Assembly (NCBI GenBank): GCA_018127085.1
Contig: CM030728.1
Location: forward strand, 422,369 to 486,368
Origin: Pneumocystis sp. 'macacae'
Taxonomy: Eukaryota > Ascomycota > Pneumocystomycetes > Pneumocystales > Pneumocystaceae
Direction: 5' to 3'
Length of the DNA: 64,000 bases
Made by a program: the position numbers and the translations under genes. Positions 43,301 to 64,000 of this stretch are shown in pieces. The notes below the pieces were generated by a model. The model had not been told where the DNA came from and did not search any database. It worked only from the letters and a program-made list of their open reading frames with translations. Numbering within the stretch: position 1 is the stretch's first letter; each line of letters opens with the position of its first letter.

Positions 43301-43407
43301 ATGATACACGTATAATAGGTGCTGCAATCAGATCAAAAGAATTACAGAGAATAGAGTTAATTTTGACAATTACTGCAATAATACTAGGCCTGTGGATAAT
43401 TATTTAA
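40305..43407 (+). CDS. msg: Cys-rich surface glycoprotein with long proline-rich stalk (divergent msg)
   Basis: Two exons: 40305-40386 and 40427-43407, giving 1,020 aa. Exon 1 encodes the signal peptide (MLLFTKICIFLVFISIKRV). The joint is phase 1 after Leu, as in the 29.5 kb gene. Residues up to ~810 are Cys-rich with msg-like spacing (CRKLKLGCRSLSKQSPELLD-type blocks; CKKLEL/CKELD patterns), but without the CGFKE(D/E)C landmark of the other four msg genes, so it belongs to a different subfamily. Residues ~815-970 are Pro-, Glu- and Ser-rich (PPGPPPEAPPEQPQP; EPKPKPESP), likely an extended wall-spanning stalk. The C-terminus ends in a GPI-type signal (LILTITAIILGLWIII). It has its own ATG and promoter region. 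Confidence 0.85.
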
Positions 43408-44720: not shown

Positions 44721-44741
44721 TTAGCAAATTTGAAAACGAAT

Positions 44742-44905
44742 AATTATCATTAAGAATTATTTTTATAATTTGAATTGTATGATGGAAAAAATCAAGATTT
44801 TAAAAATATAAATGTTATATATATAGTTTTGAGTTCAAGTTAATGGAACTAAATGTAAGAAATAAAAAAAAATGAACAAATGTGTAGAATAATTTTAAAT
44901 AGAAA
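44742..44905. repeat. Upstream block shared by two msg genes (copy 2)
   Basis: Near-copy of 35185-35350, with AATAATTATCATTAAGAATT and AATATAAATGTTATATATAT. It lies upstream of the 45.2 kb msg. Confidence 0.8.
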
Positions 44906-45009
44906 ATGAATAATAAAGCTTAATTTTATTAAACCTATTTTCGTCTAACTTTTAAATTTTTCCTGAAAGAGTAATTTAATTAAAGTTGAAAAATAATTTT
45001 TTTGTAAAA

Positions 45010-45215
45010 ATTTAAAAATATTAGATATAAATTTATATAAATTCAAGGAAAAGGAAAGTCATACAACTGTAACAAAATACAGTGACTGTTTGTCTGTTTA
45101 TCTATTTTATATTCATTATTAATTTTATTATCGTTTCCTTATCTGAGAACTCGATATTTTTCAGTATCAAATATGATGCATTTTTTATAAAAGTTATTGT
45201 TTATTGCCATTATAA
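45010..45215 (+). promoter_or_regulatory. Probable own promoter of the 45.2 kb msg
   Basis: Conserved with 35560-35752 up to and including the CCATTATAAATGAAAG start context. The conservation supports a functional 5' region. No specific factor site is recognised. Confidence 0.5.
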
Positions 45216-48200
45216 ATGAAAGCATTTTTGTTAGCCGGATTTCTTGGCATAGCATATGCTTTTTCGGAAAGTATTAGTACTATGTTTTTTCTTTTTCTTT
45301 TAATTTTTTTTAGAATTTATTCATAAAAGATCTGCATCATTACAAACATCAGCAAGTATATCAACTTCAACAATGTATGAAAACTCTTAAGTAGCTCTAA
45401 AATGTATAAAATTAACAATTTTTTATCTAGCAAAAATGCTTTTATTTTAATCTTAAAAGAGAATATTTTAAGTACTCAATGTCATACAAAATTAGAAGAA
45501 TACTGCAAGAAATTACAAGATATGGGCATTTTGGATAAAGTTCGGGCTTTGGATCCAAAAATGAAAAACCTTTGTAAAAATGCAGAAAATACAGAAAATA
45601 CAAAAAATACAAAAAATACAAAATATAAAAAAATATGTGATAGCTTTAAAAAAAATAATATAACATGTGAAGAGTTTAAAGAAAAATTACAAAATGTTCT
45701 TGGTGGGGGATTTTATCCATATGATCATTATACAATGCAAAGTCAATGTATTTTATTGGAAAATGCGTGTTCGGAAAATTTTAAACTTAAAACAGAATGT
45801 AATAATTTAGCAACTTTATCCAAACGACAAGAACGAAGTGATATAATATTAGAGTTTCTTTTAAGAGCATTTTCTGGAAACTTGAAAACAGAAAAAGACT
45901 GTGGAAAAGTGGTTAATGAGAAATGTCTTATATTCATGGGAGAAAGCGACGAACTAATGGAATTTTGTTTAGGTTCAAATAGATGTAAAACTCTTCTGGG
46001 CTCTGCAAGAATTAACTGTGGATACTTAGAAATGAAAGCAGCAGGGCTTAAAAAGTTTTTAGAAACTAGTGGTGATGCTGAAATGTTAAAAGAAATGTGC
46101 ATTTTATTTCTTAAAAAATGTCACTTTCATAAATCAAACTGCAATGATAGCTTTCAAAATGTTTGCAAAGAGCTAGAAGAAAAATGCGGAAAGGAAAGAA
46201 AATACACACCACCTAATTTAATGCTTAATATACTAGAAAAAGAAATTACACTAATGGATAAAATAGAACACAAAGAATTATTTGATGATGAAATTGGAAA
46301 ACCTGGAATAAAGAATACGGTTGATCTTCTATTATTGCTAGTAAATAATAATCTGAATAATTGTGAAACTAATCTTAACAAATGTTATAAATTTTGTAGC
46401 TCTTTACCTCAATTGAAAGATCTATATGACAGTACTAACAGAAAAATGAATGAAAGTAAAAAAGAGGTCTGTACTAACCTAAAAAATAATCTGAAAAACA
46501 GATGCAAGGCGCTGAAATCAAAATTACATAGCTTGTCTATGTCAAACGCTACAGAGGACCAGGATTCTATAGTATTGGGATGGTCTGAGCAATCTACTGA
46601 GCTCGATGAAAGACTTTGTATAGATTTGGAATTTGAGTGTTTTTACTTACAAACACATTGTGATGACATGGGTATTAAAATGGATAATGCATGTGCGAAT
46701 CTAGAATCAGCATGTTTAAAGACACGACTTTTTAGAAAGGGCTATCAACTATTTCAGAACCTGTTAAAAGGGAAGTTGCATAATTTAACAGAAGTTAATT
46801 TCCTTAACATATGCATCAATGAACTATTGGAACTATGTAAAACTGAAATTGATATCCATAGTCCCATACTAATGGATTTTTGTCTACGACCATGGGATAC
46901 TTGTCATGCACTTGAAAGTGATATTGAAAGGCAAAGTCGGGAACTTAGAATCAGTTTAGGCTGGAAGAGGGATTTTCCAAGTGATGAAGACTGCAAGAAA
47001 CTGGAACAGAAATGTGAAGCACTGGAACATGATTCAAGAATGAACGATTTGCCATGTCTTACGTTGAAAGAACGATGTAATCACTTGAAGAATGCAAAGA
47101 AATTAGAGGAGATTTTGTTAAGAGAAAAAGCAAAAAATTTAAGTGATTGGGAAACATGTGTAAAAAAGGTGACAGAAAGATGCAATAACTGGTCTAGAAG
47201 AAAGAGGATGAGGTTTACTCTTTCATGTATACAATTAAACATTACTTGCCAAATGATTACTAGAGATATTGAGTTTAAATGTACTACGTTAGAAAAAAAT
47301 ATGGATTTTATGAAAGTTTTAGAAAAAACAAATAATAAAAATGCAAATAAGGGGCTAGTATGTGACTTCTGGGAACCTTATTGTGACAAATATATCTCGA
47401 ATTGTGAGAAACTTGTACAAGATAATGGAGAAGATGGAAAGTGTAAAAAATTAAAGGAAAATTGTAAATCATATCGCAAATTACAGGACAAAAAAATTGA
47501 AGTTATGTATAAATTGCAAGGAAACCTTAAAAAAGATAAGTGTAAATCAGCTCTTGATAAATACTGTTTAGATTGGGCTAAAACGGACAATGATGCATTC
47601 AATAATTTCTGCATTAATACTACTAGTGCTGAAAATAATACAGTCAGAATAGAGCTATGTCAAGAACTAGAAAGACTAATGAAAGAAAGATGTGCAGAAT
47701 TATCTATGAAACTAGAGAGTATGGCGACAGGAATAGAAAAAAGTGTAAAGGCAGTTAACGAATTGAATGAAATTGCAAGGAAAGCATTAGAAAGTGCAAA
47801 ACTTACTTTGAATAAACAAAAAACAGATGTAGATCACGCAGCATTGATTCTACTTTATAATGCAGATGCAAACATAAAAAGAGATCTAAGAGCAAACATA
47901 GTTCAGAAGGATCTTCCTAAATATGTGCAACAGAAGGATGCAAATGTAAATATTACTGATGAAAAAGCTATGGCGTTTGATGCAGCAACTGAAGCGTTGA
48001 AGGTATATACAGAAGTGAAACTAGATTGCAAAATTCTATTGTTAGAGTGTGGATTCAAAGAGGATTGTTCTGGATACAAAGATTCATGTGGAAAAATTAA
48101 AAATGCATGTAGCAAATTAAAAGCACTGGAAATCAAATCGTTAAAGAAAGAAGCAACTAATCAGACTATTATAGAGGCTACTATTACAGAAACAATTATT

Positions 48201-48500
48201 ATCGAAACAAAGTCAGATGGAACGCAAAAGACAGTAACAGTAGAAGGACAATGTCTCTTGGTTCGCACAACGGACAGATGGGTTACGAGTATCTCAACAT
48301 ACACACGCACATCTACACAGACATCTATTGTAACATCAACTATGACATTGACATCACAAAGGCAATGCAAGCCCACAAAGTGTGCGACAAAGGGTAGAGA
48401 GGAGGCAAGTGTTATAGAGCTAAGTGAAGGCCTAAAGATGACTGAGTGGAGCATGATGAAGGGAGTAATATTAACAATGATTATTTTGGCTATAGTTTAG
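45216..48500 (+). CDS. msg: Major surface glycoprotein, two-intron type with own start
   Basis: Three exons: 45216-45276, 45314-45374 and 45431-48500, giving 1,063 aa. Exon 1 is a signal peptide (MKAFLLAGFLGIAYAFS). The introns (37 and 56 nt) sit at the same places and phases as in the 35.75 kb paralogue. The body is the same Cys-rich architecture (KRDFPSDEDCKKLEQKC, RCNNWSRRKRMRFTLSC, LECGFKEDCSGYKDSC), with an extra Asn/Thr-rich tandem (NTENTKNTKNTK) near residue 85. The Thr-rich segment (STYTRTSTQTSIVTSTMTLT) precedes a tail (MMKGVILTMIILAIV) suited to GPI attachment. Similarity to the paralogue is uneven along the length, as expected if segments are exchanged. Confidence 0.9.
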
Positions 48501-49498
48501 AATGAATGACTAAGATCGGAGAAAAAACATATATATTTTGGAATGAATAAAGTCTAGAGAACATCATCTATATTTAGGATAAGCATGGTTTTAGGAGGTT
48601 GCATGTGTATTTGTAATGGGTGAGATCTAGAAAAGAATATGTATTTGTATATTTGGGCAGAAAGAATAAGACAAAAAAGAATAAAAGAGACCAAAGAAAT
48701 GACTCTTCAGCAATTCACCATACATTTTGAGTGACATTAACCTGTATTTTTAATTCAATCAACTTGTACTTTTATAACTCGCTTTCTATCTATTCACATA
48801 TATTTATCCTAATAATCTTTTCAAAAGCATGACTAAGAATTAAAGTAGAAGTCATGGAGAATGCCCCTTGAAGATACTTGATATGAAAATAACATGAGAA
48901 ATATAATTGTCAAACATTTTACCAGATTTTATGGGAAATTACTTAAATTTGCTGGATAAAATAATACAAAAATATTTTAAAATGGATTTTACTAACATTG
49001 TTTGATGATTTGATAAAGAAAATTTAATGAGTTCAAAGGAATATTTGCAAGACGAATTAACATGTATTAGAATATGGGAAATATAGTTATGTATTTAATT
49101 TAAAAAGCAGATGTTTTAAAAATATTATCTAAAATTGATATTTATTTTCTTAAAATAATTTCTATTATGTATTTTTATTTTTTTAAAATACACTAGAAAG
49201 TCAAACCTTTTAAAGAAAAGAAAAACCTGCATTTTAAAAGAACCATGTTTCTTCATAAATACAGACCGATTCGTATTTTCAGCTCGTTTTCAGGATTTAT
49301 AGCAACGTACCACGTATATTAAAAGAACTTAAGATTGCTTCAAGAACCTTTTGAGAACAAAGATTCAATGCATACTTTTATTGCAAACAGAATTCTTTTA
49401 AACCATATTTTATACTTGAGAAAAGACATACAAAAAAGTTGAGATGACTAAACAAAAGTATGCTTCATAAACTCGGCACAGAGCTGCACATGAAATAG
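48501..49498. other. Spacer between own-promoter msg and first donor-type msg
   Basis: About 1 kb. GC rises gradually toward the donor gene. No ORF, and no ATG in the frame of the following gene. I see no sign of an upstream conserved sequence (expression site). Confidence 0.5.
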
Positions 49499-49540
49499 AA
49501 GCCAAGCACGCGACGTATTCTAAAGAGTTCAGCACGGGCG

Positions 49541-49563
49541 GTGGCGCGGGCGGTCAAGAGGCG
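49541..49563 (+). other. CRJE-like recombination junction, copy 1
   Basis: The first 22 bases are identical to 52887-52908 and read VARAVKR in the msg frame. The near-identity continues through AGAATGTATATGAGGATG. In Pneumocystis this type of sequence marks where silent msg copies join the single expression site. KR is a likely Kex2 cleavage site. Confidence 0.75.
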
Positions 49564-52552
49564 GGCGCAGGTAGCACAGAATGTATATGAGGATGTGGAG
49601 TACCTTTTTGCTTTGGTTCTAAAAAAAGAAAATAATTTAGAAGAAGCGCAGTGCAAACAAGAATTAAAAGAATACTGTAAAAATTTAAGGGGCATAGATG
49701 AAAACTTTGATGTTAATCCGAAATTAAAAGACACATGTACAAGCGATACTACAGCAGAAGGAAAATGCACAGGATTGAAAAATAAGGTTAAAGCAAAATG
49801 CACTTCATTTAAAACGCAACTTGAAGATGCAATAAAAGATGCTTCAAAATTAACGGATGATGTTTGTAGAAAGCATGAACAACAATGTTTGTTTTTGGAA
49901 GCAGCATGTGAAACGGAACTTAAGGATAACTGTAATAAGTTAAGAGTCGGTTGTTACCAGAAGAAGCGTAATGAGGTGGCAGATGAAGCTCTTTTGAGGG
50001 CGCTTAACGGTGATCTTAAAGATGTGAATGAGTGTAAAAAGAAGATCAAAAATGTTTGCCTTGCGTTGGGTCAAGAAAGCAATGAGTTAATGCAAAAATG
50101 TTTTGATACAGACTCTACATGTACATCTCTCGTACAAGCAGCAAAAGATAAATGTGACCCTCTGAAGACAGAAATAGAAGATGCACTAAAACCTAATGGG
50201 GAATTGCAAAAAAAAGGGAATTTGTTACTTGAGAAATGCCACTTTTATGGGCCAAACTGTAAAAATAATAAATGTGGTGATTTAAAAAAGAAATGTCAGG
50301 AAGAAGGAATTGTTTATATACCACCAGATCCAGATTTTGATCCTACAGAGCCAGAGATTACACTTGCAGAGAAAATAGGACTGCAGAAGCTTTACGAAGA
50401 AGCTGCAACAAAAGGCGTTGTAATTGGAAGAGCATTAGAAAGAGATATTGTTGATTTGTTAGTGTTGTTATCAGATAATGACTTTGATGACACTAAATGC
50501 AAGAATGTACTTAGCGGTAAATGTGATTCTATTGAATATTTAGCAAAAGATTTACAAGAGTTATGTAAAAATAAAAGTGATCATGGCGATAAATGTACGG
50601 AATTTAAACAAAAGTTTGAGAAGAAAAAGACAACTCTGAGTACAAAGATTGAAAGCAAACGATTTGAAAAAAACAAAATCGCATTATGGAGTGAATTACC
50701 AAGATTTCTTACTGAGAATGATTGCATAGAATTAGAATCAGACTGTTTTTATTACGAAGGTCAGACATCGTTTGAAAAACTATGTAAGAATGTCAAGGCA
50801 GCGTGTTATAGAAGAGGCCTTGATGCATTAGCAAACCAAGCATTGCAAGACAAAATGAAAGGAAAACTTAATGGTAGAGATGAAAAATGGCTTGAAATTA
50901 TTCAAAAAGAACTGGTAAACGCATGTGTGGATCTAAAGGGAGAAAGTGGCGAACTATTTATGTTGTGTATACAATTAGCAGAAACAGTTTTTGTATTATT
51001 AGAGGATTTGCATATGAAGACGGACTTATTACAAGAGGATTTGAACGAAAGACGGGATTTTCCTACGAAGCAGGATTGCAGGCAATTGTTGAAGAAGTGC
51101 GAGGATCTAGAACAAGACTCAGAAGAGCTCAGATGGCCCTGTCGTACATTGAAACACCATTGCAGTCGATTGGAGACGGTGGAGCATTTGGAAAACAAAT
51201 TGTTGGAGGAAAAAATAAGGGATTTAAAGAATGAAACTGTTTGCAAGAAAAGTGTTGAGGAACAATGCAATAATTGGATAAAAAAGAGGAAAATACCGTT
51301 TATCCTTGCATGTGCAGCACAGAATGTTACTTGTAAAATCATCACACAAAGTCTTGTGCTTAAATGTGGTTTGTTGAAGAAACATATAGAAACTCTAGAC
51401 GTTGTAAAACAATCAAAGGAAGAAAACAAAAGAGAATCAGTTTGCAGCTTTTGGGAAGCATATTGTGACAAATTTATGTTTAGCTGTAATAATCTAATAA
51501 ATAATGGCAATGGAGTGTGTGAGGAACTTAAAAAGAATTGCAAACCGTACCGAGAAAAATATGACCTAGAGACACAGGTTATGTATGAGTTCAGAGGGAA
51601 GCTTGCAAACAAAGATAAATGCAGAGTAACTCTTGATCAATATTGTACACAGTGGACTAAAACAAAAAATAAGACATTGGAGAGTTTGTGTAGTGCTAGT
51701 AGTGCTAATGATAATGCAACTAGGGATGAATTATGTGAAAAATTGGTAGGGCGAGCAAAGGCAAGGTGTGGAGAATTATCTACAAAATTGGAGACAGCGA
51801 AAGGAGAGATAAAAACGAAGGTAGAACGAGTCAAAGAATTGAATGAAGAGGCGAAAAAAGCATCAGAAAGTGCAAATCTTATTTTGTCAAGATTAGAGAC
51901 TAAGGTGGATAGCGAAAATAACTCTAAAAATGTACCAGCGAGTGCTGGGAAAGATGCAAATTCAGCAGGAGGATCAAATACAGACCAAAAGACCCAGTTC
52001 AGACTTATCCGAAGAGGAAAAGTAGAAGTGCTTGTTACAGAAGCAGAGATCAAAGCCTTTGAAGCAGTGTCAAAGGCACTGGAGGCATACGTAGAAGTCA
52101 ATGAAGAATGCAGAGTCCTAAAGCTTGAATGTGGATTTAAAGAAGAATGTCCAGCGTGCAAAGATGCATGCAATGCGATTGAGAAGGAATGCAATAAATT
52201 GGAGCCATTGGAAGTGAAGAAGCATAAAGTACAGACAGAGACAAAGACAGAGACAACGACGACGACTAAGATAGTCGGACAAGGAGGAAAGACAGAAGAT
52301 CTAGAAAAATGCACCTCTATTCAGACCACAGATGTGTGGGTCACGAAGACATCCACACATACCAGTACATTCACATCCACGTCGACTACTACATCTACAG
52401 TGACACTGACATCGACAAGACGGTGCAAACCTACAAGATGTACGACAGGGGATGAGGCAGGAGATGTGACGCCGAGTGGAGGGCTGAAGATGACGGGATG
52501 GGGTGTAATGAGAGGGGTGTTGTTGGGAATGGTTATTTCGGTTATGATTTAA
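49541..52552 (+). CDS. msg: Classical msg (A1 / family I type), donor copy without start codon
   Basis: Intron-less ORF of about 1,003 codons. The first codon listed is GTG, not ATG. The frame is open back to 49499 (stop TAG at 49496) with no in-frame ATG, so it is unlikely to be translated in place. It opens with ARAVKRRAQVAQNVYEDVEY. The Cys-rich body has the landmarks ERRDFPTKQDCRQLLKKC, QCNNWIKKRKIPFILAC and LECGFKEECPACKDAC. The end has a Thr-rich stretch (TKTSTHTSTFTSTSTTTSTV) and a GPI-type tail (GVMRGVLLGMVISVMI). Family knowledge: such copies supply antigenic variants by recombination into the expression site. GC is higher than in the two-intron msg genes. Confidence 0.9.
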   Translation: MARAVKRRAQVAQNVYEDVEYLFALVLKKENNLEEAQCKQELKEYCKNLRGIDENFDVNPKLKDTCTSDTTAEGKCTGLKNKVKAKCTSFKTQLEDAIKDASKLTDDVCRKHEQQCLFLEAACETELKDNCNKLRVGCYQKKRNEVADEALLRALNGDLKDVNECKKKIKNVCLALGQESNELMQKCFDTDSTCTSLVQAAKDKCDPLKTEIEDALKPNGELQKKGNLLLEKCHFYGPNCKNNKCGDLKKKCQEEGIVYIPPDPDFDPTEPEITLAEKIGLQKLYEEAATKGVVIGRALERDIVDLLVLLSDNDFDDTKCKNVLSGKCDSIEYLAKDLQELCKNKSDHGDKCTEFKQKFEKKKTTLSTKIESKRFEKNKIALWSELPRFLTENDCIELESDCFYYEGQTSFEKLCKNVKAACYRRGLDALANQALQDKMKGKLNGRDEKWLEIIQKELVNACVDLKGESGELFMLCIQLAETVFVLLEDLHMKTDLLQEDLNERRDFPTKQDCRQLLKKCEDLEQDSEELRWPCRTLKHHCSRLETVEHLENKLLEEKIRDLKNETVCKKSVEEQCNNWIKKRKIPFILACAAQNVTCKIITQSLVLKCGLLKKHIETLDVVKQSKEENKRESVCSFWEAYCDKFMFSCNNLINNGNGVCEELKKNCKPYREKYDLETQVMYEFRGKLANKDKCRVTLDQYCTQWTKTKNKTLESLCSASSANDNATRDELCEKLVGRAKARCGELSTKLETAKGEIKTKVERVKELNEEAKKASESANLILSRLETKVDSENNSKNVPASAGKDANSAGGSNTDQKTQFRLIRRGKVEVLVTEAEIKAFEAVSKALEAYVEVNEECRVLKLECGFKEECPACKDACNAIEKECNKLEPLEVKKHKVQTETKTETTTTTKIVGQGGKTEDLEKCTSIQTTDVWVTKTSTHTSTFTSTSTTTSTVTLTSTRRCKPTRCTTGDEAGDVTPSGGLKMTGWGVMRGVLLGMVISVMI

Positions 52553-52565
52553 GAGTGAATGAACA

Positions 52566-52622
52566 TGGTTTGGGACTGCATGTATATTTATGGAATGATT
52601 AACATAAAGTGCATTTAACGAG
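52566..52622 (+). repeat. Conserved 3' flank of donor-type msg, copy 1
   Basis: Shares ATGGTTTGGGAC, GCATGTATATTTA, GGAAT and AGTGCATTT with 55908-55966 after the second donor gene. It is therefore part of the duplicated unit. Confidence 0.75.
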
Positions 52623-52722
52623 ACGTATCTTCCTGTAATCTGCCCGTACTCCAACCTATCTGTGTTCTTTATGCCCATTCACTGTGTTTTTTATCTCGAT
52701 TTATTGTAATTCAATTTTCGAG

Positions 52723-52752
52723 TTTACCCCGCGTTTACCCCACACAAATTTT
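52723..52752. repeat. TTACCCC element pair in the msg spacer
   Basis: TTTACCCCGCGTTTACCCC is followed by ACACAAATTTT. The TTACCCC pair is also at 56152-56170, and the ACACAAATTTT word is the reverse complement of AAAATTTGTGTGG near 56178. Confidence 0.65.
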
Positions 52753-52874
52753 GGGTTTGTCACGTGATAAGAACCTCAGCAAAAGATAAGGGGCACACAT
52801 TGACTATTCTTTGGTTTCAGCGTGAAAGCTCAAGATGACCCGGCAAACTCGGCTTTCAGGTCGTCGGTCAGAAT

Positions 52875-55800
52875 TTGGCGCGGGGGGTGGCGCGGGCGGT
52901 CAAGAGGCAGGCACAGCAAGTACAGAATGTATATGAGGATGAAGAGATTCTTTTAGCTTTGATTGTGAAAAAAGATTATAAAGAAAATAAATGTAAAGAA
53001 AGTTTAGAAAAGTATTGTAAAGAATTAAAAAGTGCTACACTAGAAAAGAAAGAAATACATAAAAAACTTGAAGGCTTATGCGAAAATGGAAAGCAGCAGG
53101 CAAAATGCACAGAATTGAAAGACAAAATTACTCAAAAATGCACTGAATTCAAAGGAAAGCTCGGAACAGCCGCAGGAAAAACTATTTCAACACTAACAAA
53201 TGATGATTGCAAAGAGAATGAACAAAAATGCTTGTTTTTAGAAGGAGCATGTCCAACAGATCTTAAAGATGACTGTAACAAGTTGAGAAATAAATGTTAC
53301 CAGAAGAAGCGCGATGAGATAGCAGAAAAAGTTCTTTTAAGGGCGCTTAGCGGGAGTCTTAAGCAAGAAGACTCATGTAAACAAAAGCTCAAGGATGTTT
53401 GCCTAGAATTGAGTGGAGAAAGCGATGAATTAACGGAATTCTGTTTTGATAAAGAAAAAACATGCCAGAGGCTTATAACTAAGGAGCAATATGTCTGTAG
53501 TTCCCTCAAAAACGAAATTGAAGAGCTTCTGAAAAAAAAAGACGAGTTGGAAACGAAATGCCCATCATTACTTAAGAAATGCTACTTTTACAGCACAGAT
53601 TGCACTGGAGATGGACCGAAATGCAAAGACCTAGAGAATAGTTGTCAAGGAAAGGGGGTAGTTTACGAGAGACCGGGTTCAGACTTTGAGCCCACGCGAC
53701 CGGGGCTTACGCTGGCAGAAGAAATAGAGCTGCAGGAGCTTTATGAGGAGGCAGCAAGGGAAGGGGTCTATATTGGGAGGCCGCCCACAAGAGATGCAGC
53801 TGAACTTTTGCTCTTGCTGAGTCGGAACGATGCAGGAACAGGGGTTAAAGAAAAGTGTAAAGAAGTACTTGAAAAAAAATGCGAAGATCTTAAAGAACAT
53901 GGACTTCTGAAGGGTTTATGCAATGATAATGGTAAAGCAAATGATAATGGAACGAAAGAATGCACTAATTTGGATAAAAAACAAATGGAAAGCGCCAGGG
54001 CTCTCACTACGAAATTTAAAGATAAATATTTTGCTGAAACTAAACCAGATACAATTATTGGATGGCATGATCTACCCATATTTCTTAGTGAAAAAGATTG
54101 CAGAACTCTGGAGTCAGACTGTCTTTATTTTAGAGGTCAAGGGCCTACTGAGAAACCCTGTAGTAATCTAAGAGCGGCGTGTTACAAAAGAGGACTCTAT
54201 GCTGTGGCAAATGAGGCATTGCAACGCGAATTGCGGGGATCATTGCAGGGTTCAAATCCAACGTGGTTTGATGATCTTCAAAAGAAGTTGGTAAAAGCCT
54301 GTGGAGAACTAAAAGGACTGAGCGATGAGCTGTTCGTGCTGTGCATGGACCCGAAAAGCACAGCGCTTACGCTTTCAACAGACTTGCGGATGAGGGCAAT
54401 TTATTTGAAGGAGCTCTTGGATGAAAGACGAGATTTCCCGACGAGAAATGACTGCAAGAAGTTGGGGAAGAAGTGCGAGGAACTGGGACCGGATTCAAGG
54501 GAGATTTGGTGGCCGTGTTATACACTGAATCAGAATTGCAGACGGTTGGAGAGTGCAGAACAGTTGGAGGAGGATTTACTAAAAGAAAAAATAGAAGGCT
54601 TAGATGAGTTTGATTCGTGTGTAGAAAAGTTGAGGGAGCGATGCAATATATGGGGTAGGAGGAATCGGTTTACTCTTGCATGTCTGGCGCAGAATGTTAC
54701 GTGCAGGATTATTGCGAAAAGCGTCAAGTCCAAGTGTGCAGCACTAGGCGAGAATATGAAAGAGAATAAAGTTGTACAGGAGGCAAAGAAGGATAATGGA
54801 GAAAAAGAAAAGATATGTACCAGTTGGGTGCCATATTGCAATAAGTATATGTTAAGTTGCAAGGATCTAGCGACTGATGATAATAATTGCAAAGGACTTA
54901 AAAAGGAATGCGAAACAGTCATTAAACAGCTGGAATTGGAAGAGGGATTACTTGATAAATTAAAAGGAAACTTAGAAACACAGCAAAAATGTAAAACAGA
55001 ACTCGACAAATACTGCACTGAATGGAAAAACGCAACTAATGGCCTTGAAACTTTGTGCACAGACAAAAGTACTACAAATAAAAAAAGTGATAATGATATT
55101 AGGAATGGACTCTGTGGAAAACTTGTAGAAAAGCTTAAAGAGCAATGCCCTACGTTGGAGAAAAAACTCACAGAGGCTAAAAAGGAACTGGAAGAGAAAG
55201 CAGATGAATATGAAAATATTAAAAATAAGGCAGAAGATGCATTGAAAAAAGCAAATCTTGTTTTATCTAGAACAAAGGCAACAAACGGTTCAGGAAATAA
55301 AGAAGCAGCAGCCAAACCTGATGTGGCAAAAAATGCAGCACAGTTTAGACTTGTAAGAAGAAATCTAGCAGCAAAAATAACAGAAGACGAAATAAAGGCA
55401 TTTGATTTGGTATCGCAGGCGTTGAGTTTATATGTAGAATTGAAAGAGGAGTGTCAAGATCTACTGAAGGACTGTGGGTTTAAAGAGGAGTGTGAAAAAT
55501 GCAAAGATGCATGCAACACAATAGAAAATAAATGTAAGGGATTGAAACCGTTGGAGGTGACGGAGCACAAGGTAGAGACATCAACGACGACGACGACGAC
55601 GACGACGACAACAACGATAGTTGGATCAGACGCAGGAAAAGCAGGAACTGAGCAGTGCACATCAATTAGAACGACAGACACGTGGGTCACACACACATCA
55701 ACGCACACAAGCACATCCACATCCACGTCGACGACAACATCGACGGTGACGCTGACGTCGACAAGAAAATGCAGACCTACAAAATGTACGACAGAGGGCG

Positions 55801-55898
55801 AGGAGGCAGGCGAGGTGAAGCCGAGTGGGGGGCTGAGGATGCGCGGGTGGAGCGTGAAGGGGGTGTTGTTGGGGATGATGATTTCAGTTATGATTTAG
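52875..55898 (+). CDS. msg: Classical msg (A1 / family I type), donor copy without start codon
   Basis: Intron-less ORF of about 1,007 codons. The nominal first codon is TTG. The frame is bounded upstream by TGA (52836-52838) with no ATG, and the one nearby ATG (52835) is in another frame that stops early. The protein opens ARGVARAVKRQAQQVQNVYE and has the landmarks ERRDFPTRNDCKKLGKKC, RCNIWGRRNRFTLACL and KDCGFKEECEKCKDAC. A (Thr)n run from an ACG repeat (55583-55610), a Thr/Ser-rich region and a GPI-type end (GVLLGMMISVMI) follow. It is the msg nearest the satellite array, only 330 bp after the first donor copy. Divergence from that copy is greatest in the middle of the Cys-rich body. Confidence 0.9.
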   Translation: MARGVARAVKRQAQQVQNVYEDEEILLALIVKKDYKENKCKESLEKYCKELKSATLEKKEIHKKLEGLCENGKQQAKCTELKDKITQKCTEFKGKLGTAAGKTISTLTNDDCKENEQKCLFLEGACPTDLKDDCNKLRNKCYQKKRDEIAEKVLLRALSGSLKQEDSCKQKLKDVCLELSGESDELTEFCFDKEKTCQRLITKEQYVCSSLKNEIEELLKKKDELETKCPSLLKKCYFYSTDCTGDGPKCKDLENSCQGKGVVYERPGSDFEPTRPGLTLAEEIELQELYEEAAREGVYIGRPPTRDAAELLLLLSRNDAGTGVKEKCKEVLEKKCEDLKEHGLLKGLCNDNGKANDNGTKECTNLDKKQMESARALTTKFKDKYFAETKPDTIIGWHDLPIFLSEKDCRTLESDCLYFRGQGPTEKPCSNLRAACYKRGLYAVANEALQRELRGSLQGSNPTWFDDLQKKLVKACGELKGLSDELFVLCMDPKSTALTLSTDLRMRAIYLKELLDERRDFPTRNDCKKLGKKCEELGPDSREIWWPCYTLNQNCRRLESAEQLEEDLLKEKIEGLDEFDSCVEKLRERCNIWGRRNRFTLACLAQNVTCRIIAKSVKSKCAALGENMKENKVVQEAKKDNGEKEKICTSWVPYCNKYMLSCKDLATDDNNCKGLKKECETVIKQLELEEGLLDKLKGNLETQQKCKTELDKYCTEWKNATNGLETLCTDKSTTNKKSDNDIRNGLCGKLVEKLKEQCPTLEKKLTEAKKELEEKADEYENIKNKAEDALKKANLVLSRTKATNGSGNKEAAAKPDVAKNAAQFRLVRRNLAAKITEDEIKAFDLVSQALSLYVELKEECQDLLKDCGFKEECEKCKDACNTIENKCKGLKPLEVTEHKVETSTTTTTTTTTTTIVGSDAGKAGTEQCTSIRTTDTWVTHTSTHTSTSTSTSTTTSTVTLTSTRKCRPTKCTTEGEEAGEVKPSGGLRMRGWSVKGVLLGMMISVMI
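52887..52909 (+). other. CRJE-like recombination junction, copy 2
   Basis: Identical to the first 22 bases of the 49541 copy. Encodes VARAVKRQ. A partial extra copy (GGCGCGGGG) lies just upstream at 52877. Confidence 0.75.
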
Positions 55899-55907
55899 AA
55901 ATGGGCA

Positions 55908-55966
55908 AATATGGTTTGGGACGGGCATGTATATTTAGGGAATAATGAGTGCATTTTACCGGGACG
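55908..55966 (+). repeat. Conserved 3' flank of donor-type msg, copy 2
   Basis: Matches 52566-52622 (ATGGTTTGGGAC, GCATGTATATTTAGGGAAT, AGTGCATTT). It marks the end of the msg unit and the start of the array. Confidence 0.75.
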
Positions 55967-55974
55967 CCCTCCCC

Positions 55975-56035
55975 GCACCTCGTACTGTGCACGCCAGCCT
56001 CCCCCGCACCTCGTACTGTGCACGCCAGCCTCCGC
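55975..56035. repeat. 31 bp direct repeat, two copies
   Basis: GCACCTCGTACTGTGCACGC begins at 55975 and again at 56006. The block is GC-rich in an otherwise AT-rich genome, and its centre is the palindrome GTGCAC, which is frequent in the array that follows. Confidence 0.9.
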
Positions 56036-56151
56036 ACACAGTGTATTCCTGCCTCACAGTATGCCGTGTGCGCGTTGGATGCGCTTTAGATGCGTGTTGG
56101 CGTGTTTTGGACGCGTCTGGGACGCGCGTGTTTGCCCGAAATTAGTCCGGA

Positions 56152-56310
56152 ATTACCCCGCATTTACCCCGCAAAAAAACAAAATTTGTGTGGGGAAGGG
56201 CCGATAAGAGAGGGGGAGGGCGTTACCCCGCATTTGTGGCCGAAAACGGAAACGCCCCACCGAAAAAGCAGAATTTGTGTGGGGAAATGTGGGGTAAGTG
56301 TGGGGTAAGG
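56152..56310. repeat. TTACCCC / GGGGTAA element cluster
   Basis: TTACCCCGCATTT occurs at 56154 and 56224, with AATTTGTGTGGGGAA after each (56179 and 56270). They are followed by GGGGTAAG on the same strand at 56292 and 56302, an inverted form. One copy of the same parts lies in the spacer between the two donor msg genes. Confidence 0.75.
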
Positions 56311-56319
56311 CAGAGGAGA

Positions 56320-59300
56320 GGGTGAGGGAGGTGTGCACACAAGAATTGAGAGGAGGGGAGGAGGGCAGATTGAGGAATAATGCGTAGATGTTTGCACGGG
56401 ATTTGCGTTGATTTCGACTCAATTGGAGGCGGAAAGAATGGAATAAACGGTTTTTTCCTGCATGTCAAGGGTGAACAGGAAGAAGGCGGGGAGAGGTGTG
56501 CACCAGGCGACGAGATGAGTGTGTGCACGAAGTAGAGGTGGGTGTGCACAGCAGATGGGATAGGTGGAGGTGTGCACGGTGCTGATAAAGTAGTGAGCAA
56601 GAGGTGGTGGAGCTGAGTAACAGAGTAAAAAAACAAAATAAAAGAAGTAGAAGTAGACGTTAAATTTAGCTTAGAATTAAGAATAAATAAAGAATAAAAA
56701 GTTTTTTTGTAAACCAAAAGCAAGAATTGCTAAGCAGAGTTGGAGTGGTGGGTGAAGGGTGAAAATACAAAAAGCCAAGAGTAAGAGTGAATGGTAGATT
56801 AGACTTGGATTTAAGTTAGAATTGACTCATATTTAAAAAGTAAAGAACAAAGTTTTTCGAGCAGATCAAAAGTACAAGAGAATTGACGGGATGGAGTAGA
56901 TAACGAGTAAAGGGAAAAAATACAAGATAAAAACTAGGAGTAGAGATTAGATTGAAATTAAGCGTAGAATTAGACTAGATTCAGAAAGGGGAAGAATAGG
57001 ATAAAAATGTTTTTTCAGATCAAAAGTAGAAGAATGAGGTGGAAATGAGACGATAGTGGGTAAAGATAAAATACGAGATAATTAAAAGCAAAAATCAGAT
57101 TGGATTGCGTTTAGAAGTGGGTTTAGATTGGAGTTGGAGGAGAGTAAAAAATAAAGTATTTTTTGCAAACCAAGAGTGACGAATGACTAGAAATAAGTAA
57201 AGCAGAAGATAATGGATAAAAAACAGGAAGCACAGAAGATAAGAAGTAAATTTAAGCATTAAAGTAGAATTTGGGTAGATTTAAAAGAGGAAAAAATAAA
57301 ATGTTTTTTGTAAATGAAAAATAAATGTGAGTGTACAGGAGCTACTGAGAGGTAAAGATAAGGTGGAGGTGTGCACCAAGTAGCGAGGTAGGTGTGCACC
57401 AAGCAACAAGGTATGAGGTGTGCACGAAGCAATGAGGGGGGTGGGGAGGGGGAGGTCGGGTGTGAAAAAAGTGTGTACGGTGCAGAGAGGTTGGTGTGCA
57501 CCAAGCACTTAGTAGCAGTTAGTATGAGGTAGGGGAGAGGTGGGATGGGGGTAGGAGAGAGGTATAAGTGCGTGTGCACCGTGATTATAAGGTAGGGTGT
57601 GCAGTGTGCAGAGATAAGAGAGGGTGGAGGGGAGGTAGAAGTTAGAGATGGAGACTAGGAGTAACAGGATAGAAGAAGTAGAAGCAGAATTAGACTAGTA
57701 TTAGACTAGTTTTAAAAGTAGATTAAGAATAAAAAGAGTTTTTTTGTAAACCAAAAATAAGAGAATTGGTGGAAAGTAGAGTTAGAGGTGGTGGGTGAAA
57801 GGTAAAAATACAAGAGAAGAGAAGTAGGTGTGAGTGAGAGTTAGATCAGGATTTGATGTAGATTAAATTTAAGAAGAAATGGAGAATAAAAAGAATTTTT
57901 TGTAAATCAAGACTAGGAAAATTGGAAGGTGTAAATAAGATGGATAAGAAAATGTGAATAGCAAGAGATAAGGGGTAGAAGTAAAAATTGGATTGAAATT
58001 GAGGGTAGAATTGGATTAGATTTAAAAATAAGTGGGTAAAAAGTTTTTTGTAAATCAAAGTCAAGGGTGAACAAGAAATCATATGGGGATAGATGAGGAA
58101 GTGTACAACGAGAGGGAAGGTGTGCACCAAGCAACGAGATGAGTGTGTGCACCAAGCAGAGCAAGGTATAAGGTGTGCACACGGTAGCATGAGGTAAGGA
58201 GGGGGAGGTCGGGTGTGAAAAAAATGTGTACCGAGGAGATGAAGTGGTGTGCACCAAGCAGTTAGTGAGAGGTAGGGAGGTGAGGAGGGGTAGGAGAGGG
58301 GGAGAAGTGGGGGTATAAGTGCGTGTGCGCGGTGCAGAAAGGTAGGGTGTACAATACGAAGAGAGGGTGAAGGGGGTAAGAGTAGAAGTGGAGAGTAGAA
58401 GAGTAACAAGATAGAAGAAGTAGAAGAAGAATTAGATTAGCATTAGGTTAGAATTGAATTATTTATGAGAGAAAAGAAAATAGAATTTTTTTTGTTATGG
58501 ATCAAAAGTGAGCACTTGATAAGCAAAGTTGGAGGTGGTGGGTGAAAGGTAAAAATATAAAGAGCAGGGAGTGAGAGTGAATGGTAGATTAGATTTAAAT
58601 TTGTGTCAGATTTAGGTTGTATTTAAGAAGTAAAGAATAAAAAGTTTTTTTGTAAATGAAGAATTGGGTAAGAATTAACAAAAGTAAAAATAAGGTGATG
58701 GATAAAACAAGAAACATAAAAAATAGAAAGTAGTAAAAATTAGATTAGAACGAGTTTAGAAGCAGATTTAGATTAGAGTTAGAGAGAAGTAAAAAATAAA
58801 GTATTTCTTGTAAATCAAAGCAGAACAAGAAATCAGGTAGGGGTAGATGAGGAAGTCTACGAGAGGGAAGGTGTGCACCAAGTAGCGAGGTATGAGGTGT
58901 GTGCACAAAGTAGCGAGGTAGGGTGAGGAGGGGGGGTTGGATGTGAAAAAAGTGTGTACCGAGCAGATGAGAGTGTGCACCAAGCAGTTAGTGGGAGGTA
59001 GGGAGGTGAGGAGGGGTAGGAGAGGGGGAGAAGTGGGGGTACAAGTGCGTGTGCACCGTGCTGATAAGGTGGGGTGTACAATACGAAGAGAGGGTGGAGG
59101 TAAGAGTAGAGGTGGAGAGTAGAAGAGTAACAAGATAGAAGAAGTAGAAGTAGAAGTAGAATTAGATTAGAATTAGACTAGTTTTAATAAATAAGGAGCA
59201 AAAAGTTTTTTTTTAAATCAAAAATAAGAGTTGATAAGTAGAGCAGAGGTGGTGAGTGAAGGGTAAAAATAAAAAAGATAAAAAGTAGAAGTGGGTATTA

Positions 59301-61550
59301 GACTGGAATGAGTTTAGATGTGGGTTTAGATTAGATTTAAGAAGAAATGAAAAATAAAAAGTATTTTTTGTAAATCAAGACTAGAAGAGTTGGAAGGTGT
59401 AGATAAGATGGATAAGAAAATGTGAATAGCAAGAGATAAGGGGTAGAAGTAAAAATTGGATTGAAATTGAGGATAGAATTGGATTAGATTTAAAAGAGAA
59501 AAGAATAGAATAAAAAGTTTTTTTCTTGTAAATAAAAAATGGACAAGAACAAGGTGGAGAGTAGGAGAGGGTCTACAGGAGGCAGCGAGTGAGCGTGTGC
59601 ACGGAGTAGCGAGGTGGGAGTGTGCAGAGTAGGGGATGGGGTGAGGGGGGGGTCGGGTGTGAAAAAAGTGTGTACCGAGGAGATGAGAGTGTGCACCAGA
59701 AGTGACTAGTAGTAGAGGGGGGTGGGGGTAGGGAGAAGTGGGAGGGGTAGGAGAGGGGGTACAAGTGCGTGTGCGCGGTGTATAGATAAGAGGAGGGTGT
59801 GCAGTGTGCTGATAAGGGGAGGTGAGGTGGGTGGTGGAGGTGGAGCTGAGAGTAGAAGAGGAGTAACAAGATAGAAGAAGTAGAAGTAGAATTGAATTGA
59901 AATTAGTTTTAATAAATAAAGAACAAAAATTTTTTTTTAAATCAAAAGTAAAATTTGTGGAAGGAAAGTAAAGGTAATAATGAGTGGAAAGGTAGAAGTA
60001 GAAAAAAAAGTAGGACTGAATGAGTGTTAGATTAGACTTGGATTTGAATTAGAGTTAAAGAAAAATGAAGGGTAAAAAGAATTTTTTGTAAGTCAAGAAT
60101 TGGGTAAGAGTTAACAAAAGTAAAGATAAGGTGTGGTAGATAAAGCAAGAAGCAGAGGAGATAAGAAGTAGAGGTGAAGATTAGATTGAATTCCGTTTAG
60201 AAGTGGATTGGATTTAAGGGGAAATGAAAATAAAATGTTTTCACGAGCAGATCAAAAATGAGTGGACAGGAGTTAGTGAGAGGTAAAGATAAGGTGGTGT
60301 GCACGAAGCAGCGAGTGAGTGTGTGTACCAAAAGTAACGAGGTATGAGGTGTGCAAGAGGTAGTGAGGTAGGAGGTGTACACGAGGCACCGAGGTAGGGT
60401 GGGGGAGGTCGGGTGTGAAAAAAATGTGTACCGAGTAGATGAGGTGGTGTGCACGAAGCAGCTAGTAGGGGGAGGTAGAGGAGGAGAGGTAGGAGAGGGG
60501 TAGTGTGGGTGTACATAAGCAAGAGAGGGGGTAGAAGTGGGTGTGTGCGGTGTACAGATAAGCTGAGGTGGGGGAGTGAGAGTAGAGGTGGAGAGTAGAA
60601 GAAGAGTATAAAAAGAAAAGAGTAGAAGCAGAGTTAGATTAGCATTAGGTTAGAATTGAATTATTTTTGAAAGAAAAGAAAATAGAATTTTTTTTGTAAG
60701 TCAAAAGTAAGAGCTGATAAGCAGAGTTGGAGGTGGTGGGTGAAAGGTAAAAATATAAAGAGCAGGGAGTGAGAGTGAATGGTAGATTAGATTTAAATTT
60801 GTGTCAGATTTAGGTTGTATTTAAGAAGTAAAGAATAAAAAGTTTTTTTGTAAATGAAGAATTGGGTAAGAATTAACAAAAGTAAAAATAAGGTGATGGA
60901 TAAAACAAGAAACATAAAAAATAAAAAGTAAAAGTAAAAATTAGATTAGAACGAGTTTAGAAGTGGATTTGGATTAGAGTTAGAGGGGAGTAAAAAATAA
61001 AATATTTTTTGTAAATCAAAGATGAACAAGAAATCGGGTGGGAGTAGATGAGGAAGTCTACGAGAGGGAAGGTGTGCACCAAGCAACGAGATGAGTGTGT
61101 GCACCAGGTAAGAGGAGGTAGGGTGAGGAGGGGGGGTTGGATGTGAAAAAAGTGTGTACGGTGCAAATAAGATGATGTGCACCAAGCATTAGTAGCAGTT
61201 AGTAGGAGGGAGGGGAGAGGGGGAGGGGAGGTAGGAGAGGGGTACAAGTGGGGGTACAAGTGAGTGTGCACGCAACATTAAGAGCAGAGGTGGGTGTGCG
61301 CGGTGCTGATAAGAGGAGGATGAACAAGAGGTGGTGGAGGTGAAGAACAGAGTAAGGAAACAAAAAAAGTAAAGGTAGAAATAAAGTAGAAGTTAGATTA
61401 GCATTAGATTAGAATTGAATTATTTTTTAGAGAGAGAATAAATTTTTTTGTAAGTCAAAAGTAAGAGTTGATAAAGCAGAGTAGAAGTGGTGGATGAGTG
61501 AAGGGTAAAAATGAAAGAAAAAAAAAGTGGAAGTGAATGAGTATTAGATT
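56320..61550. repeat. Satellite-like array with ~0.73 kb modules and GTGCAC blocks
   Basis: Purine-rich on the + strand. A recurring unit has (a) AAAGTTTTTTTGTAAATCAAA-type words about 150-160 bp apart, followed by GATTAGAATTAGA-type words, and (b) a block of TGTGCACCAAGCAG repeats ending in GTCGGGTGTGAAAAAA. The GTGTGAAAAA word (GTGTG or ATGTG form) lies at 57460, 58213, 58941, 59657, 60413 and 61141, spaced 753, 728, 716, 756 and 728 bp. Blocks at 58561-58740 and 60759-60938 are nearly identical (offset ~2,198). Blocks at 57911-58030 and 59379-59498 are nearly identical (offset 1,468). Long open frames on the minus strand follow from the pyrimidine-rich complement and are not genes. Confidence 0.9.
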
Positions 61551-61694
61551 AGACTTGGATTTAGGCTAGAATTAAAGAGAAATGAAAAATAAAAATAATT
61601 TTTCGTAAATCAGAACTAGAAGAGTTGGAAGGTGTAGATAAGGTGGATAAGAAAACAGGAACCATAAGAAATAAAGAGGAGATGCAAAAATTAG

Positions 61695-63540
61695 ATTAAA
61701 ACGAGTTTAGAAGTGAGTTTAGATTAGAATTGGAGGGGAGTAAAAAATAAAGTATTTTTTGTAAATGAAGAGCAAGTGACGAGTGAGCAAGAATAAGTGA
61801 GTAGAGAGGGTGGTGAAGAAAAAATAAAAACACCAAAAAATAAAAAGCAGACACGAAGAGTAGATTGAATTGCATTTAAAAGTAGATTTAGATTAGGGTT
61901 AGAGGGGAGTAAAGAATAAAGTATTTTTCGTGAATGAAGAGTAAACGATGCGTAATGAGCAAAAGTTAGTGGAAGATGATAAGGTGAAGAATAAAACAGG
62001 AGCACCAAAAAATAAGAAGCAAAGGTGAATGTTAGATTGAAATTGAAAAGACAGTGTGAGTAGAAAGGGCATTGCGTGTAAATAGGGTGGAGGCGAGGAG
62101 GAGTTGGTGGAAGTGAAGATAAGATGAAGAATAAAACAGGAAGTATAAAAAATAGAAAGTAGAAGTGAATGTTAGATTGAATTGCGTTTAGGAGTGGGTT
62201 TAAATTGGAGTTAGAGGAGAATAAAAAATAAAAAGAATTTCTTGTAAACCAAGAGTGACGCGTAGATGGGCAAGAATTGCTAAGTAGAGCAGAAGGTAAT
62301 AGATAAAAAATAAAAACACCAAAAAATAAAAAGCAAACACGAAAATTAGACTGAATTGCATTTAAAAGTAGATTTAGACTAGAGCTAGAGAAGAATAAAG
62401 AATAACGTATTTTTCGTAAATGAAGAATAAGTGACGAGTGAGCAATAAATGAGTGAAGGGGGTGGTAAATAAAAAATAAAAACACCAAAAAATAAAAAGC
62501 AAACACGAAAATTAGATTGAATTGCATTTAAAAGTAGATTTAGATTAGAGCTAGAGAGAAGTAAAAAATAAAAAGAATTTCTTGTAAACCAAGAGTAAAC
62601 GAAAAGAATTGCTAAGTAGAGAGGGCAATGGTGAATAAAAAATAAAAAACACCAAAAAATAAGAAGTAAAGGCGAATGTTAGATTGAATTGCATTTAGAA
62701 GTGAGTTTAGACTAGAGTTAGAGGGGAGTAAAAAATAAAAAGAATTTCTTGTAAACCAAGAGTGACGCGTAGGTGGGCAAGAATTGCTAAGTAGAGCAGA
62801 AGGTAATAGATAAAAAATAAAAACACCAAAAAATAAGGAGCAAAGGTGAAGATTAGATTGAATTGCGTTTAGAAGTGAGTTTAGATTAGAGTTAGAGGGG
62901 AGCAAAGAATAAAGTATTTTTCGTGAATGAAGAGCGAACGACAAGTAGGTGGGCAAGAATTGCTAAGTAGAGAGTGGTGGTGGGTAAAAAATAAAAACAC
63001 CAAAAAATAAGGAGCAAAGGTGAAGATTAGATTGAATTGCGTTTAAAAGTGGGTTTAGATTAGAGTTAAAGAAGAGTAAAGAATAACGTATTTTTCGTGA
63101 ATAAAGAATAAGTGACGAGTGAGCAAGAATGAATAGAGGATGGTGGTGAATAAAAAATAAAAACACAAAGAAAAAAGAAGCAAACACAAAGATTACATTG
63201 AATTGCGTTTAAAAGTAGATTTAGATTAGAGTTAGAGAGAAGTAAAAAATAAAAAGAATTTCTTGTAAACTAAGAGTAAACGAAAAGTAAGAATTGCTAA
63301 GTAGAGGGTGGTGGTAGACAAAAAATAAAAAACACCAAAAAATAAGAAGTAAACACGAAGATTACATTGAATTGCGTTTAGAAGTAGGTTTAAATTGGAG
63401 TTAGAGGAGAATAAAAAATAAAAAGAATTTCTTGTAAACCAAGAGTAAACGAAAAGAATTGCTAAGTAGAGAGGGCAATGGTGAATAAAAAACAAAAAAC
63501 AAAAGAGATAAGAAGTGGAAGCAAAGAATAGATTGAAACA
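61695..63540. repeat. 166-174 bp tandem array
   Basis: The word ATTGAATTGC (or a one-base variant) occurs at 61864, 62176, 62350, 62516, 62683, 62857, 63031, 63197 and 63366. From 62176 the spacings are 174, 166, 167, 174, 174, 166 and 169 bp. Each unit also has a TTTCTTGTAAACCAAGAG or ATTTTTCGTGAATGAAGAG word and ATAAAAACACCAAAAAATAA. Earlier units (61695-62176) are more divergent. One variant at 62036 shares its wording (GACAGTGTGAGTAGAAAG) with 63545-63570. Confidence 0.92.
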
Positions 63541-64000
63541 GGAGAGGCAGTGTGTGTGGAAAGCGTGTTGCATGCAAACGAGGTGTAGGTGAGGCAATTG
63601 CTTGAACGTGAAGAAGGGGAGGGAAAGAAAGGTGAGGAAGAGGCGGAGGGGGGACGGGGCAGAGGCGGCAGAAAATACAGCAGAGAGCATGCAAACCGGG
63701 ACGTTACATTGAGCCTCACGTGAAGAACAAAATGCAAGAAGCAGCGGACGCAGAGAGGACTAGGGTGAGGCAATTGCTTGAAAGGCAGGGTGGACATGCA
63801 GTAGAGGAGGATGCGGCGAAATACAGCAGAGAGCGCGCAAACCGAGACGTTAGATTGAAGCGCAGAGGCAGGGCAAAGCAGAGGGCAGGACACAGGCAAA
63901 CGAGGGGGGGTGAGGCAATTGCTTGGAAGGCGGGGTGGACATGCAGTGGAGGGGGATGCAGCGAAATACAGCAAAGAGCATGCAAAACAAGAGGTCAGAA
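63541..64000. repeat. GC-richer ~145 bp repeat, continues past the window
   Basis: GAGGCAATTGCTTG occurs at 63591, 63767 and 63912, and ATACAGCA at 63675, 63821 and 63966 (146 and 145 bp apart). GTGGACATGCAGT follows two of them. The block has more G and C than the preceding array and is still repeating at the right edge. No TTAGGG or other telomere repeat is reached. Confidence 0.8.

Follow-up and report, generated by a model that had tools for sequence, protein, structure and literature searches.

A telomere-associated satellite distal to the msg genes of Pneumocystis 'macacae'

Published models of how msg genes change chromosome ends in Pneumocystis include a crossover that takes the telomere along with the msg gene. 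The available text of the accounts consulted for the P. jirovecii models (PMC10622565) gives no description of the intervening DNA. What does this DNA consist of, and what maintains it? In this study, we analysed a window of 64,000 nucleotides that forms the end of contig CM030728.1 of Pneumocystis 'macacae', a macaque lung fungus. A first-pass annotation had described a satellite with higher-order periodicity next to the msg cluster of this window.

Anatomy and distribution of the array

The segments listed next are on the plus strand. The outermost msg gene (52875-55898; PF02349 at 2.8e-57, PF12373) points toward the telomere. It is followed by a junction (55899-56392) that has matches on contig ends and carries two tandem copies of a 31-bp element (55971-56033). 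The array then extends from about 56393 to 63540 and consists of a single monomer family. The observation made in the first-pass annotation (56320-61550) holds, but the array extends further. The monomer is about 160 bp long, arranged head-to-tail, C-poor and purine-rich, with a T-tract. A G-rich module of about 270 bp is found on each third monomer of the higher-order region, and this module together with plain monomers makes a higher-order unit of about 738 bp. There were two plain monomers in 69 of the 81 closed units.

The array opens with a diverged G-rich block (56393-56713; G-module profile score 79), which contains four GTGTGCAC words at 56496-56570, followed by diverged plain monomers with monomer profile matches at the proximal edge (56714-57314). 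A G-module profile match over 56714-57165 is a plain-monomer run; 20 of the 128 matches to this profile were such runs and 108 were genuine, a correction that left all 69 two-monomer units unchanged. Five higher-order units follow: unit 1 (57334-58061, 728 bp), with a G-rich module and two plain monomers, unit 2 (58062-58818, 757 bp), unit 3 (58819-59534, 716 bp), unit 4 (59535-60266, 732 bp), and unit 5 (60267-61016, 750 bp), which shares 98.8% identity with a unit of contig end C15R. Beyond the last G-rich module (61017-61453; profile score 236), the distal part (61456-63538) is a plain tandem repeat of about 170 bp without G-rich modules. Its monomers of about 165-174 bp match the monomer profile, and TRF gave a period of 174 over 62172-63448. 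The start of a GC-rich subterminal element (63540-64000) closes the window, where the contig stops short of the telomere.

(TTAGGG)3 was present on two contig ends only, C10L and C15L. On both, the order toward the telomere was msg, junction, higher-order units, plain monomers, GC-rich element and telomere, so that a tandem repeat separates the last gene from the telomere, as in a telomere-associated satellite. Positions 63757-63872 and 63909-63986 of the window match the C10L element adjoining TTAGGG at 84% and 81%. The subtelomeric position proposed earlier was thus borne out. The window has no TTAGGG pair; single TTAGGG words occur at 55935, near the array, and at 61893, the only one within 56393-63540.

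Junction sequence (query 55899-56640) gave one strong match per end on at least 32 contig ends, all outward-facing. These include at least 30 of the 32 ends of C1-C16, plus C17L and C18L; 40 of 63 candidates were scored, and the counts are lower bounds. Among the matches scored, 64 of 64 were no more than 12 kb from a contig end, and those listed occupied most chromosome ends and no internal sites. The array thus occurs on essentially every chromosome end, and confinement to one locus, which the first-pass annotation had named as a ground for rejection, does not apply. Pairwise identity of the junction had a median of 0.73 over 21 ends, and most contigs stop within the array. These results indicate that the array is a telomere-associated satellite, placed distal to the outermost msg gene on essentially every chromosome.

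We also considered whether the array encodes a protein or derives from msg DNA; neither was supported. Y'-like subtelomeric elements encode a protein such as a helicase. For this comparison, the Pfam scan of array ORFs covered the longest reverse-strand ORF (267 aa), which had no Pfam family; its length was reached by 2% of shuffles and is therefore nearly explained by composition. Neither the monomer nor the G-module profile matched window positions 1-56000. Rfam and tRNA scans of the window (ARAGORN, bacterial code) returned 0 hits, and the window had no match in a plasmid collection, as expected for a fungus.

Higher order and probable exchange between chromosome ends

The repeats reported earlier were largely recovered. 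The six spaced words lie at 57460, 58213, 58941, 59657, 60413 and 61141, with gaps of 753, 728, 716, 756 and 728 bp. The word is GTGTGAAAAA, without mismatch, at four of these positions and ATGTGAAAAA at the other two, and dinucleotide shuffles of the array averaged 0.4. An extra exact copy of the spaced word, at 55490, belongs to the last msg ORF and has no connection with the array. The 2,198-bp offset corresponds to 58533-58735 and 60731-60933 (203 bp, 98.5%), a block common to units 2 and 5. The 1,468-bp offset held in part: 47 identical 24-mer pairs occur at that lag, but under strict extension the match covered only 60 bp, at 90%. Exact direct repeats reached 199 bp in the array, compared to at most 18 bp in 100 shuffles.

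The nearest relative was at the same position of the unit for 138 of 138 monomers, which shows that the higher-order periodicity is real. Same-position monomers were 0.752 and 0.726 identical, compared to 0.651 for neighbours, as in a satellite with fixed monomer order, and swaps of the position labels reached 0.016 against 0.083 observed. The order was fixed on 27 ends, at an overall unit identity of about 0.72. Unit statistics leave out C3L, C12L and C19L, which lack the array, and pairwise unit tests leave out 9 three-monomer and 3 longer units. C3R, C4R, C6R, C14R, C16R and the right ends of C17-C19 lay outside the sequence covered, and ten other right ends were partial.

Local homogenisation is the usual explanation for higher order, and the first-pass annotation had proposed block duplication or unequal exchange. 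Within the array, neither was supported as the main force. Units were 0.714 identical on the same end and 0.725 on different ends; adjacent units were 0.713 identical (38 pairs, maximum 0.766) and non-adjacent units of the same end 0.716. One of 69 units (shuffled 2.2) and 4 of 141 distal monomers (shuffled 7.7) had their best match on their own end. Near-identical neighbouring units were thus not seen in the assembly, where an assembler could have collapsed them. A single within-end tract of at least 250 bp and 93% was found, on C4L (450 bp, 97.8%); this duplication is the exception to the absence of local ones. The array is a natural test of satellite theory, with higher order present and no local homogenisation detected.

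Long near-identical tracts instead joined different ends, over 1.9-5.4 kb at 99.5-99.97%. They include C10L/C16L (5,442 columns, 99.71%), C7L/C8R (3,234 columns, 99.85%), C10R/C11L (2,058 columns, 99.81%) and C10R/C5R (1,867 columns, 99.57%); because of the last two, C10R is a mosaic, C5R-like on its inner side and C11L-like on its outer side. In C12R/C13R (99.97%) and C9L/C11R (99.96%), identity runs to the limit of the available sequence. C9R and C15R shared patches only. Among the pairs examined, which were chosen by length and not at random, identity fell to 0.44-0.86 at 6 of 8 visible tract edges and was soft at the other two (0.94, 0.97). Best matches of at least 0.97 lay at equal distance from the junction in 25 of 33 cases (0.21 expected), in a test omitting 4 of 69 units that lacked an anchor. 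After removal of the long-tract pairs the in-register excess was small, with 3.2% versus 1.2% of pairs above 0.9. Near-identity began beyond the last msg stop in all five tract pairs with a visible msg-side edge, and those events therefore carried no msg genes; for C9L/C11R and C18L/C1L this edge lies outside the sequence examined. The shared tracts could be assembly joins. Since blocks are common to different chromosomes and are not local copies, these results suggest that the array is probably a site of DNA swaps between ends.

Explanations for the array

We lean toward a telomere-associated array that is maintained by exchange between chromosome ends and serves as an expendable arm before the msg genes. 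Breaks, eroded telomeres or stalled forks would arise in this distal arm. They would be repaired from another chromosome end, via gene conversion or break-induced replication, because all ends offer the same outward-facing homology. Such repair would spread unit variants genome-wide, keeping each array mosaic, and would make the arm a buffer. Terminal exchanges that start at more internal sites, such as the CRJE of msg genes, could also extend to the telomere by using this homology. The aid to msg recombination proposed earlier is possible. More tentatively, the satellite may homogenise only between chromosomes, in many cases at matching distances from the msg junction, and leave neighbouring units unlike. 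If so, pairing and repair would preferentially use the corresponding site of a different chromosome end, and the array would be a genome-wide docking arm enabling terminal exchange and hence reshuffling of the adjacent msg genes. Loss of Ku as the cause of exchange was rejected; Ku-domain matches above the cut-off were found on C9 and C2.

A passive subtelomeric repeat, with no selected role and a mosaic due to the ectopic recombination common to any such repeat, would fit the free divergence of units (identity about 0.72) and the variable array length, from 1 to 8 G-modules per end among ends with sequence analysed, some of them cut. We consider it rather doubtful: the fixed order, the purine/pyrimidine class kept at 0.918 compared to 0.81 for letters, and the conserved 20-base G-module blocks (up to 0.90) suggest constraint, although these observations do not test selection. 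It is still less likely that only the repeat family is real and that the shared tracts arose in assembly, as duplicated contig ends or false joins. Most contigs do stop in the array interior, and two pairs are identical to the limit of sequence. However, C10L/C16L and C10R/C5R are flanked by differing sequence on both sides and differ internally, and the higher-order result and the absent local similarity are independent of long tracts.

Similarly improbable is that msg read-through yields G-rich RNA, with R-loops or quadruplexes, stalled forks and a start of exchange, in a TERRA-like manner. GC skew is up to 0.77 per kilobase, C makes up 6.3% of the array, and msg genes aim into it. Four quadruplex motifs lie on the outward strand (0.24 in shuffles) and 0 on the other, which is few for this mechanism; it would supplement exchange between ends, not exclude it. 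The earlier suggestion of a heterochromatin seed, nucleating H3K9-methylated chromatin via small RNA or bound proteins and silencing neighbouring msg genes, is the least probable. The array adjoins silent antigen genes, and Clr4 is present according to the accessible part of PMC10327204. The same part reports that RNAi and Swi6 are lost and that H3K9me2/3 peaks in P. carinii, P. murina and P. macacae are pericentromeric only, although array repeats may have been unmappable in those data. A Piwi search gave no match; its sensitivity in fungi is unproven, because the only positive control genome was an archaeon.

Comparison with known systems

Human alpha satellite has monomers of about 160-170 bp in fixed order; its units are locally homogenised, and it is centromeric. 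The monomers of the present array likewise match by position across units. In contrast, its neighbours differ (0.713), it is terminal, and it covers kilobases only. Plasmodium falciparum TAREs are among the closest known systems, compared here by description and not by sequence. They have H3K9me3/HP1 chromatin and are bound by PfSIP2, whereas the Pneumocystis array is described here from its sequence; a three-monomer higher-order unit, as in Pneumocystis, is not described for TAREs in the sources available.

The TelKO arrays of Naumovozyma castellii are also a fungal subtelomeric element that spreads between ends. In the accessible text of PMC12408736, telomerase-negative cells have a 325-bp higher-order repeat, which is identical within and between arrays and includes telomeric sequence. 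The macacae units differ from one another, and with one TTAGGG in the array (61893) and no pair in the window, telomeric repeats are not part of the higher-order unit.

For P. jirovecii, no telomeric repeats were found in the assembly, as stated in the available part of PMC5676039, and the consulted portions of PMC10622565 and PMC5676039 mention no satellite between msg and telomere, unlike in macacae. The present analysis supplies an anatomy for the DNA from gene to telomere, together with a record of past exchanges, which can be checked in reads and other isolates. In both species, msg genes aim toward the telomere. A conserved stretch of about 31 bp follows msg-I stops in P. jirovecii, where exchange of a gene together with its telomere has been proposed (both in the accessible part of PMC10622565), and a 31-bp element lies in the macacae junction.

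Anatomy and periodicity of the array

The satellite array beside the msg surface-antigen genes occupies window 56393-63540. Thirty end pieces of assembly contigs were examined, comprising 19 left ends, the array-bearing right end of contig C9 in the window, and parts of 10 further right ends. The array was present in 27 of the 30, with 108 G-rich modules (G-modules) and 81 closed higher-order units. Cutting at a T-tract anchor yielded 209 monomers, 140-185 bp long, whose consensus is 162 bp. The G-module, on every third monomer, contains GTGTGCAC repeats of ~25 bp and the word noticed in the first-pass annotation. Each higher-order unit adds plain ~160-bp monomers to it: two in 69 closed units, three in 9, and five or six in 3, with a median unit length of 738 bp. 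The G-modules of the window begin at 57334, 58062, 58819, 59535, 60267, and 61017, preceded by a single diverged G-rich block (56393-56713). Distal of 61456 there are only plain monomers. From ~63540 onward lies GC-rich sequence that matches the telomere-adjoining element at the left end of C10 (C10L), and contig C9 terminates at window base 64000. The telomeric run (TTAGGG)3 was restricted to C10L and C15L, ~9.0 and ~6.6 kb past the start of the junction, the stretch between the last msg stop and the array (window 55899-56392). At the C2L tip, degenerate telomere-like TTATGG and TATGGG runs lie close to the contig end, with no TTAGGG run.

The first-pass annotation had proposed a higher-order periodicity from a word spaced 716-756 bp apart and from blocks repeated at longer offsets. 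The six copies of the word are present at that spacing (shuffles average 0.4 words), as is the block at a 2,198-bp offset. The 1,468-bp offset held in part: 47 identical 24-mer pairs occur at this lag, but strict extension gave only 60 bp at 90%. The longest exact repeat in the array is 199 bp, and shuffles reached at most 18 bp. Periodicity was then assessed on 69 two-monomer units from 25 ends. Mutual identity was 0.752 for first-position and 0.726 for second-position monomers, against 0.651 for the two monomers of one unit and 0.594 for letter-shuffled monomers. The same-minus-cross position difference was 0.083 (2000 label swaps never exceeded 0.016), and the nearest neighbour lay in the equal position for 138 of 138 monomers. 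These results demonstrate that the higher-order periodicity is real.

The array is composed of 41% A, 31% G, 22% T, and 6% C. Among aligned unit pairs in the 0.60-0.75 identity class, 0.918 of positions agreed in purine/pyrimidine class and 0.81 in letter (gaps excluded). Since one-strand deamination would raise G+T, the G+A bias may have a structural or selected cause. Four quadruplex motifs were found on the outward strand (0.24 in shuffles) and none on the opposite strand. Within the G-module, mean conservation was 0.90 in the best-conserved 20-base stretch vs 0.74 overall (62 dereplicated copies).

Location at chromosome ends

A Pfam scan of ten ORFs in the window found the MSG domain (PF02349) in all five ORFs spanning 36066-55898. 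Coding-strand G is 0.24 and 0.26 in the two outermost of these and 0.16-0.20 in the inner three, and this rise toward the end grades into the G-rich array. An HSP90 ORF (2434-4437) has its best match in PMAC_003381 of Pneumocystis sp. 'macacae' (100% identity), with P. jirovecii second at 94%. A 199-aa ORF (29723-30322) contains 7.2 copies of the 12-bp unit CCAGAACCCGAG at 97% (29978-30064).

Of the 19 contigs in the assembly, 16 are large; PMC7940399 gives 16 scaffolds for P. macacae. The genome was queried with 55899-56640; 40 of 63 candidates were scored, hence counts are lower bounds. At least 64 matches were found, every one no more than 12 kb from a contig end. Strong matches numbered at least 32, each on a separate end. 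Contigs C1-C16 account for 30 of them, out of 32 ends, and C17L and C18L for one each. The array is thus not a single-locus feature. Among the candidates scored, C3L and C12L alone of the C1-C16 ends lacked the junction. C17 (15.9 kb) and C18 (36 kb) carry junction and array at the left end only, and may be the detached ends of C3L and C12L. Among the matches listed (of 338 and 174 in all), each array match was terminal. Since junction matches were all on the minus strand at left ends and all on the plus strand at right ends, the purine-rich strand is directed outward, like the telomeric G strand. Purine content inside the array was ~0.66-0.77 in 500-bp bins (16 array-bearing left ends and C9R, one partly masked).

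Near-identical tracts between ends

Long tracts were chosen for comparison from a list of near-identical tracts. C10L/C16L matched over 5,442 columns at 99.71% (flanks 0.86 and 0.44), C7L/C8R over 3,234 at 99.85% (inner flank 0.75), C10R/C5R over 1,867 at 99.57% (flanks 0.94 and 0.62), C10R/C11L over 2,058 at 99.81% (inner flank 0.63), and C18L/C2R over 2,110 at 99.53% (inner flank 0.77 over 109 columns, outer 0.97). C12R/C13R (3,607 columns, 99.97%) and C9L/C11R (2,308 columns, 99.96%) were near-identical over the whole compared stretch, with no edge inside it. Of the 8 edges visible, 6 were sharp. Where the msg-side edge was visible (five pairs), tracts began 27, 327, 420, 1,046, and 1,555 bp past the junction start, and near-identity therefore excludes the msg gene; the msg side of C10R/C5R retains 0.91. 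Because the junction matches of C9L and C11R score equally, and C18L/C1L stands at 0.98 at the start of the compared stretch, msg sequence may have moved in these two pairs. Of 33 best matches of at least 0.97, 25 were in register, being equally far from the junction (expected, 0.21). With long-tract pairs omitted, the in-register excess was small (3.2% vs 1.2% of pairs above 0.9; unit identity 0.734 in register, 0.721 out of register).

Units on the same end were no more alike than others: mean identity was 0.714 on the same end (78 pairs), 0.713 for adjacent units (38 pairs), and 0.725 between ends (2268 pairs), values little affected by the long shared tracts. The best-matching unit lay on the same end in 1 of 69 cases (2.2 with shuffled labels), a count biased to other ends because several ends have long tracts in common. 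For distal plain monomers this was 4 of 141 vs 7.7. A within-end tract (≥250 bp, ≥93%) was found once, on C4L. Assembler collapse of near-identical neighbours may have occurred, and would give the same picture as a lack of local homogenisation.

Possible role and relation to known systems

As far as the assembly permits, exchange between ends can be regarded as shown. The array would then be a common, expendable homology arm at every end, restored from other ends. Break repair may be the cause of this exchange, and the array may protect msg genes and aid their exchange. Ku seems to be kept in the genome, since Ku-domain matches above the Pfam cut-off lie at two loci (C9 195.6-196.1 kb; C2 320.6-321.3 kb). 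The array had also been proposed as a heterochromatin seed. Silencing via RNAi is disfavoured because the genome search gave no Piwi match and because PMC10327204 describes RNAi and Swi6 as lost and H3K9me2/3 peaks at pericentromeres only.

No Pneumocystis satellite between msg and telomere appeared in the titles and abstract openings searched, which did not cover the P. carinii telomere study of Keely et al. (2005), the likeliest to be relevant; we do not claim that the satellite is unpublished. Directly past the last msg ORF, a 31-bp element is present in two tandem copies (window 55971-56033), and a core of it lies ~72-142 bp past the junction start at all 21 ends covered there. A 39-bp segment past the last msg stop (55908-55946) is 87% identical to 52562-52599, past the stop of the preceding msg ORF. 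In P. jirovecii, msg-I stops are followed by 31 conserved bp downstream, according to section 12 of PMC10622565.
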